Positions 40,190-45,876 of a stretch of 64,000 nucleotides of DNA are shown in pieces. The position numbers and the translations under genes are program-made. The stretch spans positions 1 through 64,000 of the forward strand of contig CANRJC010000005.1 in assembly GCA_947630795.1 (NCBI GenBank), in the 5' to 3' direction. Source of the DNA: an uncultured Phascolarctobacterium sp. Its GTDB lineage: Bacteria > Bacillota > Negativicutes > Acidaminococcales > Acidaminococcaceae. Under the pieces are notes generated by a model, which worked only from the letters and a program-made list of their open reading frames with translations, was not told the origin of the DNA and searched no databases. Each line of letters opens with the position of its first letter. Position 1 is the first letter of the stretch.

Positions 40190-40440
40190 TGCGGCAAAAA
40201 CTTTAAAAGTCTCACCAAAAACTCCGCTGGAAAAAAGAAAAAGCTCACGGCGAAAGCGTAAGCGGAAAAAGAAGAGATGCTCAGCTGTGAGTGCGTGAGA
40301 AAAAGCAAAGGGCGCGCAGGTATAAGTCTGCGAGAAAAAGAGAAAGGCACTCGACCGTAAGTGTGAGAGAAAAAGAAAATATTTTCGACGAGAGGAAAAA
40401 GAAAAAGTAGCGTATTGAGAAAAAGTAAGAGATGTTTACC
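40190..40440. repeat. Tandem repeat array, unit about 35-36 nt
   Basis: At least four units, starting near 40245, follow the pattern GCTCACGGC, GTAAG or GTGAG, then GAGAAAAAG. Copies are 35-36 nt long and share about half their bases. The array lies between the SLC13 terminator and the convergent AbiF gene. Confidence 0.7.
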
Positions 40441-40458
40441 GGTGATCAGGATGTCTGC

Positions 40459-41370
40459 TCACTTATTCGGAGAGCGTAATACTTCCTGCCATTGTGTGGG
40501 GAAACCGATATAAGAGAGTCGCACAACGGATCTGTATCTCTTGAGTAAAGTTTCAAGCTGCTCGAGAAACTCCAGCCAACGTTCATCTTCACCATCACAG
40601 TTTAACATGCGTTTTATGACAAGTAAGACAGGGAAAAGTTTGTTTCTATCATTCGATCGATACATTTTATGTTCACGGTAAAGATGAGGTGCCTGTTTTA
40701 AAGGCCGGTTATATAGCCTTCCGTAATGGGCACAGATGTTTCGAAGCTCTACAAGAGCCAATATCCAACTGCCGAGATATCTAGGTTCTGTTTTATATAG
40801 CTTAGCGATTTCTTTGCTGTCTTCCGGTTTCATAATACAGTATAAAGAGGACAAGTTTCCGAAGGTAAAAAGTTCAACAGCTACCCAAATAGGAAAGTGA
40901 TTTTCGTATCTATCTACGTGATGCTTTACAAAAGCATTATTTTTTTGATGGATGCATTCCTTCCTGAAGTTGTTCAGCACAGATTCATGGACGGATATGC
41001 CGCCACTTCTATTTATATCGTTAAAGTTGGCATTATCTATATAGCCTTCAGGACCATATTTCAATGCCAGATGATAAGAGATCTGAGTGCGAAGTTGAAT
41101 CTCCAACTGCTCAATCACACGGAAAAAGATATTACGGAGATTTCTATCAAACTCGTAAAGCTGATAGATGTGATCGATAGTGATATTCTCAAGATATTTT
41201 TCTTTGTCGTCATTTCGTGTTAAGCCAATACCATAACCACTCAAGCGATAATAATTTACCTTTTTGAGGATATCATATGCAGCATCATCATTTGTTATCG
41301 TCAATGCATGTTCATTCTTTAACCGAGCAAGTTGTTCATCATATTTTAGAGCAGGTTTCAATGGATCCAT
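40459..41370 (-). CDS. AbiF-type abortive infection protein (Abi_2, HEPN RNase)
   Basis: This protein of 303 residues matches the Abi_2 (AbiD/AbiF) family: the N-terminal ALKYDEQLARLKNEHALTI, VNYYRLSGYGIGL, FDRNLRNIFFRVIEQLEIQLRTQI, and the late ALVELRNICAHYGRLYNRP. The last holds R210-N-x3-H215, the RxxxxH catalytic motif of HEPN ribonucleases. The family is linked to phage defence by growth arrest. The gene stands alone behind a structured leader ending in a terminator, then GGAGGAACT and the ATG. Its AT-rich codon use differs from its neighbours, suggesting transfer. Confidence 0.85.
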   Translation of the reverse strand: MDPLKPALKYDEQLARLKNEHALTITNDDAAYDILKKVNYYRLSGYGIGLTRNDDKEKYLENITIDHIYQLYEFDRNLRNIFFRVIEQLEIQLRTQISYHLALKYGPEGYIDNANFNDINRSGGISVHESVLNNFRKECIHQKNNAFVKHHVDRYENHFPIWVAVELFTFGNLSSLYCIMKPEDSKEIAKLYKTEPRYLGSWILALVELRNICAHYGRLYNRPLKQAPHLYREHKMYRSNDRNKLFPVLLVIKRMLNCDGEDERWLEFLEQLETLLKRYRSVVRLSYIGFPTQWQEVLRSPNK

Positions 41371-41385
41371 AGTTCCTCCGAGTAT

Positions 41386-41444
41386 AAAAAAAGTCCCACC
41401 GTGGTCCGCAGTGCGTTGCCGCCTTATGCGTGGTGGGCTCTGTC
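41386..41444 (-). ncRNA. Short structured leader RNA of the AbiF gene, with terminator
   Basis: The promoter predicts a transcript start near 41444. The RNA folds as GCCCACC paired with GGTGGG (arms 41432-41437 and 41395-41400 on the plus strand). An inner CGCA/TGCG pairing and further GC-rich bases lie between, and the fold is followed by ACTTTTTTT. That gives a free RNA of about 60 nt ending 15 nt before the AbiF start codon. From memory, a conserved abiF RNA motif is known upstream of Abi_2 genes; this looks like a member, but I could not compare it with a model. It may act as an RNA antitoxin or attenuator. Confidence 0.65.
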
Positions 41445-41450
41445 ACGTAT

Positions 41451-41479
41451 ATTTTAACTAATACAAATAGAAAAGTCAA
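41451..41479 (-). promoter_or_regulatory. Promoter for the AbiF leader RNA and gene
   Basis: Minus strand: TTGACT, 17 nt, TAAAAT, a strong match placed so that the leader RNA starts about 7 nt downstream. Confidence 0.8.
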
Positions 41480-41600
41480 CTGTTTTTTAGCTATTTTTAA
41501 ATAAAAGTTGGGGAAAAGAAAAGAGTGTCGCCTCTTTGCTTTTATCTTCGCTGAGTATGAAAAGAGGAAAGTCACAGATCAAAACAAAAAGCAAAAGAAA

Positions 41601-41637: not shown

Positions 41638-41713
41638 TGGTGGGCGCTGACGGGATCGAACCGCCGACATTCTGCTTGTAGGGCAGACGCTCTCCCAGCT
41701 GAGCTAAGCGCCC
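41638..41713 (-). tRNA. tRNA-Val (UAC)
   Basis: All four stems pair: acceptor GGGCGCT/AGCGCCC, D-stem GCTC/GAGC, anticodon stem TCTGC/GCAGA and T-stem GGCGG/CCGTC with TTCGATC. The anticodon loop is CCTACAA, so the anticodon is UAC (Val). CCA is encoded. Position 33, nearly always U, is C here if the loop is read as seven bases. Confidence 0.9.
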
Positions 41714-41717
41714 GAAG

Positions 41718-41793
41718 TGGCTCCCCGAGTAGGACTCGAACCTACGACGCCCTGATTAACAGTCAGGTGTTCTACCGACTGAACTATCGGGGA
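41718..41793 (-). tRNA. tRNA-Asn (GUU)
   Basis: Acceptor TCCCCGA/TCGGGGA, D-arm with GTTC, anticodon loop CTGTTAA in the stem CTGA/TCAG, T-arm TTCGAGTC, discriminator G and encoded CCA. It lies 4 nt upstream of tRNA-Val in the same transcript. Confidence 0.95.
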
Positions 41794-41844: not shown

Positions 41845-42033
41845 TTTTTTGGAAAATCAAAGAGTTCTCTTTGGATCCGCAGCTTTCAGAAAAAAGCACG
41901 AGCTCTTCGCTCTTTATGCTTTCAAAAAATCACAGAGCTTTTTATCTCTTTACTCTTTCAAAAGCTCAGGAGTTCTTCTCTTCTTTATTTTTCAAAAAAG
42001 CACGAATCTTCGCCCTTTATATTTTCAAAACGC
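41845..42033. repeat. Tandem repeat array, unit 36 nt
   Basis: Three successive units of exactly 36 nt start CTTTCA at about 41883, 41919 and 41955, and a shorter fourth starts TTCA near 41991. On the minus strand the pattern is TGAAAGCATAAAGAGCGAAG, AGCTC, then T-rich. It fills the gap between the tRNA promoter and the YhcH gene end. Confidence 0.75.
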
Positions 42034-44903: not shown

Positions 44904-45212
44904 GGCCAAAACTCCGCGACTTTTCAAAAAGCACAACGAGTGAAACTCTGTGACTGTTTGAAAAAGCAAAACAAATGAGCTCCCGTGACTTTTCTGACTT
45001 TTCGAAGATCAACAGAGAAAAGCTCTGTGAGTGTTTGAAAAAGTGAGAGCAAAAACTCCGAGACTTTTCGAAATAGCGAGAGGAGAAAAACTTTGCGGCT
45101 TTTCGAAAAAGCGAAAGGCGCGAGTATCGGCAGCTTTTAGAAAAGCAGAACGAAAGAGGTCTGCGACTGTTTGAAAAAAGCAAAAGGAGCGAGGTCCCGT
45201 GACCTTACGAAA
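44904..45212. repeat. Longest array of the intergenic repeat, unit about 33-36 nt
   Basis: About nine units follow one another. A typical one is TTTGAAAAAGCAAAACAAAT, then GAGCTCCCGTGAC. Cores vary between TTTTCGAAAAAGC and TTTTCAAAAAGC. It starts within a few bases of the preceding stop codon and ends at the terminator. Confidence 0.8.
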
Positions 45213-45565: not shown

Positions 45566-45876
45566 ATATAACTTTATAAGCCCCTGAAAGACGAAGAAGG
45601 GAAGAAGAAACGGAAGTTTCGGCCGCAGAGAGCCGCCGGCAGGTGTAAGGCGGCGCCGAAGACCGTAAGGATACTGGTCCCGGAGTCGCCTGCCCGAATA
45701 GTTCGAAAAATTTTTTGAACGAAGTAGGGGAGGACGCAAAGCAGCGTTACTTGCTAAGGCCTTGTTTGAGGCTGATGAGAGCGGCGGCGGTGAGAGCCGA
45801 GAGCGCCGAAGTAGGGTGGTACCGCGGATAATTTCGCCCCTAGTGCCTTTTGTGCCGGGGGCGTTTTCATTTTTTC
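45566..45876 (+). promoter_or_regulatory. T-box riboswitch controlling leuA
   Basis: The T-box sequence AGGGTGGTACCGCGG is at 45813-45827 and is followed by an intrinsic terminator (CGCCCC with GGGGGCG, then TTTTCATTTTTT, 45835-45876). Upstream is a Stem I region with AGAGAGCCG and GGTGTAAGGCGGC distal-loop elements (about 45635-45655). The specifier probably lies near GGATACTGG, where CTG (Leu) would fit the downstream gene; this is a tentative reading. Uncharged tRNA-Leu would favour antitermination. Confidence 0.88.

Follow-up and report, generated by a model that had tools for sequence, protein, structure and literature searches.

Within the window, that is, the complete 64,000-nucleotide stretch of DNA analyzed here, the minus strand carries a compact unit consisting, in the order of transcription, of a promoter, a predicted terminated RNA of ~55 nt, a ribosome-binding site, and a gene encoding a 303-residue HEPN protein of the Abi_2/AbiF family. 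The arrangement is that of a type III toxin-antitoxin system, with the gene for the putative RNA antitoxin located directly upstream of the toxin gene and a terminator between the two. The individual features are as follows.

40459..41370 (-): abiF (Abi_2/AbiD-F family), 303 aa, ATG at 41370
40726..40743 (-): HEPN catalytic motif R210-N-I-C-A-H215 (RNICAH), aligned to R210/H215 of PbAbiF
41375..41379 (-): ribosome-binding site GGAGG
41386..41392 (-): intrinsic terminator (T7 tract plus outer stem) between RNA and gene
41390..41443 (-): abiF-like putative antitoxin RNA (AbiFr), from covariance model R1 and covariation
41437-41432/41400-41395 (-): outer stem CCCACC/GGTGGG
41430-41427/41410-41407 (-): inner stem CGCA/TGCG
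41406-41401 (-): conserved 3' bulge GACCAC
41422-41413 (-): extra apical hairpin GCG-GCAA-CGC
41451..41479 (-): RNA promoter, sigma-70-type, TTGACT-N17-TAAAAT, 10/12 matches (-35 TTGACT 41479-41474; spacer 17 nt; -10 TAAAAT 41456-41451)
41641..41793 (-): two tRNA genes just upstream of the abiF locus

The protein matches the Pfam Abi_2 family (PF07751) with an E-value of 1.1e-53 and a score of 182.7 bits against a cut-off of 25.6, it is called AbiD by PADLOC (5e-99), and the HEPN motif that the original prediction had read in the gene is found at residues 210-215. The PbAbiF-ncRNA structure described in PMC12737573 (PDB 8VZ6) aligns to residues 14-296 with an E-value of 1.2e-21, such that the two proteins are homologous over their full lengths in spite of low sequence identity. 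In this alignment Arg 210 and His 215 fall on Arg 210 and His 215 of PbAbiF, the positions of the HEPN RxxxxH motif. The double alanine mutant of these residues in PbAbiF is inactive (PMC12373285). Toxicity and ribonuclease activity would be expected for the protein in the window as for its HEPN AbiF relatives. There is no second Abi_2 gene in the source genome, and a pattern scan of the genome contigs with the protein sequence gave chance matches only.

The minus-strand promoter, the T7 terminator, and the GGAGG ribosome-binding site can all be read from the sequence as had been claimed. The promoter had been described as strong, and it does match the consensus at 10 of 12 positions, but a scan returned five such sites as compared to 3.5 expected from shuffling, and thus, taken singly, it does not rise above chance. 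Likewise, the proposed short RNA folding around CCCACC/GGTGGG has its stem, but its folding z-score is only -1.1, with 24 of 200 shuffled sequences folding equally well, so that the fold taken singly is not above chance either. It is comparison that establishes the RNA. The Rfam abiF RNA model (RF03085), by which it was to have been recognized, gave no match to the window RNA at E-values up to 10, the RNA thus lying below both the reporting limit and the gathering threshold of 37 bits, and in the source genome as a whole it yielded only weak, chance-like matches elsewhere. For this reason the RNA is classed as abiF-like rather than as a member of RF03085. A pseudoknot, the search for which had been proposed as a check, was seen neither in the folds nor in the alignment.

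Homologous abiF genes with 28-51% identity were employed for the comparison. Preceding their start codons is a common RNA skeleton, ACAG..CYCACC-A-CGC-(apical part)-GCG-NACCA-GGTGRG-C-TTTT, with a promoter-like sequence at the same place as in the window and, in most cases, a T tract after the same stem; the window RNA itself ends in GGTGGG-AC-T7. RF03085 scores these homologous RNAs at 36.4-42.9 bits, which reaches or nears its cut-off of 37, and their core is common to the window RNA. A covariance model, R1, constructed from the RNAs of 28 homologues with that of the window excluded, finds the window RNA with 46 bits and an E-value of 1.8e-12. Its stems contain nine pairs, six of which display changes on both sides, and the covariation among aligned homologues on which the original prediction depended is thereby borne out. 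Pairing was observed in 96% of cells, versus 85.5% in shuffles and 28-50% in slid controls, and the result was repeated on 34 sequences. In the window RNA the apical part AUAAG-GCG-GCAA-CGC-ACU replaces the common CUCUUAACAAU, and we believe that RF03085 probably misses the RNA because this part is both changed and enlarged. The closest AbiF found, at 56% identity, is encoded on a viral contig (L122) and is accompanied by an RNA of the same subtype. Judged by its homologues, through which it was found, the window RNA is a divergent abiF RNA.

A system of this kind has been characterized experimentally. The original prediction of an RNA toxin-antitoxin pair with an HEPN AbiF protein draws support from homology to both RCd22/AbiFCd and PbAbiF/AbiFr, although RF03085 remained unmatched, whereas its description as a little-described system no longer holds given the work on the AbiF RNA-antitoxin system in 2025. 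In Clostridioides difficile the short RNA RCd22 predominates among the products; it is recovered together with AbiF on purification and neutralizes the protein both in cis and in trans (PMC12373285). The AbiFCd-RCd22 module of the C. difficile phages phi027/phiC2 (PMC12373285) resembles the locus in the window in that an Abi_2/AbiF toxin lies behind a promoter-driven, terminated antitoxin RNA; the HEPN motifs are the same, and the window protein shows 34% identity to the phiC2 homologue. There are differences, however. RCd22 contains two abiF motifs in ~100-130 nt, whereas the window RNA has a single motif with an additional hairpin at its apex and a stem that, unlike that of RCd22, doubles as the terminator. 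In addition, the window locus is chromosomal, whereas AbiFCd-RCd22 is positioned in a prophage lysis module. As in PbAbiF-AbiFr, one single-motif RNA per monomer would be expected. The AbiF RNA-antitoxin module is thus already known, and the locus described here is a divergent member.

By analogy with these relatives, the locus would function as a type III-like toxin-antitoxin or abortive-infection module. The promoter would give rise mostly to the ~55-nt terminated RNA, which in its folded form would hold the AbiF HEPN ribonuclease dimer inactive, and occasional read-through would supply the AbiF mRNA. A phage that upset the supply of RNA would free AbiF, and RNA would then be cut.

The abiF locus occupies a variable site between an SLC13-like transporter gene and the tRNA pair (window 40347-41585, compared with L373 on G001:C22). 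In the congener G001 the flanks are 95-97% alike, and the site holds, instead of abiF, a gene for a 293-residue protein that we take to be Rpn/PD-(D/E)XK-like. Degenerate repeats of ~34-35 bp, rich in CTTTTTC, are found in intergenic DNA at 40200-40440, 41890-42030, 44909-44994, and 45051-45118, and the corresponding site of the congener has similar units. An ordinary T-box leader (Rfam, 108 bits) at 45585-45844 precedes a leuA-like gene.

A scan of the whole source genome with R1 revealed one further good match, at G000:C8:27361-27442 (E 2e-5), which lies in a prophage. This RNA shares CCACGCATAAGG and CACTGCGGACCACGG with that of the window. Its outer stem, CCCCCC/GGGGGG, and its apical hairpin differ from those of the window RNA, yet both are intact. 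It has its own TTGACT-N18-TATAAT promoter and a T tract, and it follows genes for a holin and an endolysin; head, baseplate, and reverse transcriptase genes are also present in the surrounding prophage. There is no Abi_2 gene near this RNA, and such copies are referred to here as solo. The pattern joining CCACGCATAAGG and CACTGCGGACCACGG occurs in only three IMG/VR stretches. The reverse transcriptase (L120, G000:C8:29766-30998; 410 aa, PHROG 1423) adjoins tail genes and is perhaps part of a diversity-generating retroelement.

Solo RNAs extend well beyond this genome. R1 identified 34 RNAs among 380 genomes of the class, distributed over 30 of them. About half of the RNAs lack Abi_2 within 1.5 kb, and several of these solo RNAs adjoin phage lysis, portal/terminase, or integrase genes. 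A BLAST search of named phages with the RNA consensus returned 104 records. When R1 was applied to whole phage records, the RNA was confirmed in 13 phages with E-values from 7e-15 to 1.3e-4, namely phiNIT1 (7e-15), SBSphiJ (1.5e-12), SA-C12, P1, Bp8p-C, Bobb, P59 (2.2e-8), SPO1 (3.7e-8), Paulomi, SNW-1, Javan132, Stau2 (2.6e-5), and dArtagnan; the whole records of phages K, A511, and T4 gave no match. The carriers are both temperate and strictly lytic, they infect Bacillota and other phyla, and they include phages of Lactobacillus, Enterococcus, and Sulfurimonas. PF07751 was absent from 13 phage and six viral records with a solo RNA (SPO1 lay outside this test), whereas four AbiF-coupled control records scored as expected. 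It was likewise absent from all of the 43 further viral solo records searched.

An exact-core scan with ACGCCTCTTAACAATGCGNACC, which favors close copies and whose matches are not all independent, gave 80 solo and six coupled RNAs in viral contigs, with 12 too short to tell; such contigs are often fragments. The RNAs in bacterial genomes comprised 39 solo, 69 coupled, nine near, and five short. The ratio of solo to coupled or near RNAs is accordingly 80:6 in viral contigs versus 39:78 in genomes (Fisher p 2.6e-19), and after near-identical copies were collapsed and the short cases assigned to the solo group, it is 76:3 versus 42:64. Solo RNAs are often located beside tRNA, lysis, or terminase genes, yet their neighbors vary and include lysis genes, portal/terminase, tRNAs, RelBE, and integrase. 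No other consistent partner gene was found, the downstream open reading frames differing from locus to locus. The notion of a different protein partner for those viral solos whose bulge contains a C (GCGCACC) was weakened by eight AbiF-coupled genome copies that share this C.

Since the exact-core scan required the core only, the outer stem provides an independent test of structure. At least five of its six pairs are preserved in 96% of the 69 distinct viral solos, whereas redistributing the 3' arms among them yields 50%, with a maximum of 65%, and this complementarity is maintained across 44 different 5' arms. Examples are GACTTAGC/GCTAAGTC in Javan132, CCTCAC/GTGAGG in P59, and CTTGC/GCAAG in SPO1. 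Judged by the complementarity of the outer stem, the structure of the solo RNA is under selection.

These data bear on several alternative explanations. It is improbable that the solo RNAs are now functionless remnants of AbiF modules that have lost their toxin. Some of the chromosomal ones clearly are relics: L250 retains the RNA together with a truncated AbiF start (a 40-aa stub), the 3' arms of L225, L232, and L252 are broken, and the regions flanking AbiF are variable. This does not account, however, for the preserved outer stems of the viral copies, for strongly scoring RNAs without Abi_2 in lytic phages of several genera, or for the promoter and terminator kept by the prophage copy; useless DNA, moreover, is purged quickly from phage genomes. 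Also unlikely, if less so, is another task for the phage RNA, be it cis regulation, a processing element of tRNA arrays, or the binding of a different phage protein. A tRNA is located within 1.5 kb of 30 of the 76 viral solo RNAs. In P59, P1, and SA-C12 a gap of 2-3 nt separates the 3' end of the RNA from the tRNA that follows, and therefore RNase P could produce that end. The terminator is missing in some lytic phages, so that a discrete RNA must there come from processing. The absence of a U tract from several copies means, on the other hand, that cis attenuation is not general, and both the varied neighborhoods and the conserved core and 3' bulge, which are the same as in AbiF-coupled RNAs, argue against such roles.

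Little weight is given to the proposal that the prophage RNA serves the lysogen and not lytic growth, protecting the cell as a spare antitoxin or an anti-addiction device when plasmids or phages bring in AbiF. The source genome does contain both AbiF and the prophage RNA, and AbiF modules are also borne by plasmids and phages, but solo RNAs occur in strictly lytic phages as well, for which no lysogen exists. Least probable is that the leader in the window is a mere transcription attenuator of abiF devoid of antitoxin function. The terminator does directly precede the gene, and RCd22 has, in addition, a cis effect, reducing the amount of abiF transcript (PMC12373285). The RNAs of the relatives, however, are described as binding AbiF and acting in trans (PMC12373285; PMC12737573), and neither the conserved bulge nor the solo phage copies would make sense for a pure attenuator.

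Taken with the homology, the most likely reading is that the window contains an AbiF toxin-antitoxin module and that the solo phage RNAs are antitoxin mimics which neutralize AbiF. For the lytic phages, RNA mimicry against AbiF would be the simplest reading of a solo AbiFr. The RNAs would be expressed during infection and would bind AbiF; a phage bringing its own antitoxin RNA would keep AbiF bound, and infection would proceed, to the benefit of the phage. AbiF is found on plasmids of Cytobacillus oceanisediminis, the host species of P59 and the only lytic-phage host for which this is established. Probably, then, the solo AbiF antitoxin RNAs form a natural class of RNA anti-defense elements that is widespread among phages and encoded to keep AbiF inactive. 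The source genome would itself provide a matched pair, with AbiF on the chromosome and, in the prophage, a mimic whose subtype is exactly that of the RNA at the AbiF locus.

There are precedents for such a strategy. Pseudo-ToxI, by which phage phiTE blocks the host toxin (PMC3475682), copies the RNA antitoxin of a type III system and, like the solo abiF RNAs, is carried by the phage without the toxin. It belongs to the ToxIN family, however, has a repeated RNA, and was observed in escape mutants from selection, whereas the solo abiF RNAs are natural, as a rule single-copy, and distributed over many phage genera. The Racr solitary-repeat RNA anti-CRISPRs are phage-encoded solo RNA mimics (PMC10651486), and rAcrVIA1 is cited in PMC12948488 as acting against Cas13. 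These, too, imitate the RNA of a defense ribonucleoprotein, but their targets are Cas proteins, whereas that of the solo abiF RNAs would be AbiF. An RF03085 abiF sRNA has been annotated in the lytic cyanophage S-CREM1 without an antitoxin or anti-defense interpretation (PMC9964418). In the open literature searched, to which any claim of novelty is limited, no proposal of solo abiF RNAs as antitoxin mimics was found.

The presence of these RNAs alone in phages suggests a possible antidote to AbiF defense. If this is true, the novelty lies in phages widely carrying the AbiF antitoxin RNA by itself, and small RNAs that stand unannotated in SPO1 and other classic lytic phages would gain a function. 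PbAbiF is described in PMC12737573 as a proposed ancestor of Cas13; AbiF, the likely root of Cas13, would then be engaged in an arms race of RNA mimics, as later with the RNA anti-CRISPRs. The solo RNAs would offer a ready test of AbiF as a natural phage defense, and their catalog would be one of natural AbiF inhibitors.

Several loci display other arrangements. Viral contig L350 has a tandem array of two or more abiF-like RNAs, the outer stems of which differ although each is self-complementary. In three genomes of one genus (L110, L113, and L117 in G043, G338, and G341), a solo RNA of the window subtype occupies one conserved chromosomal place adjoining a gene for a 114-residue zinc-ribbon-like protein, and resembles neither a phage copy nor a fresh relic. 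In L092 and L097 (G107 and G115), an abiF-like RNA and a ribosome-binding site are followed by a short non-Abi_2 open reading frame, presumably of the DUF1653 type, which may represent either a substitute for the toxin or a different pairing. Finally, one genome contains four solo abiF-like RNAs (G309:C1 578047, 2409132, 2528497, and 3855678), and one of them, L108, adjoins RelBE and lies between phage genes for portal and terminase.
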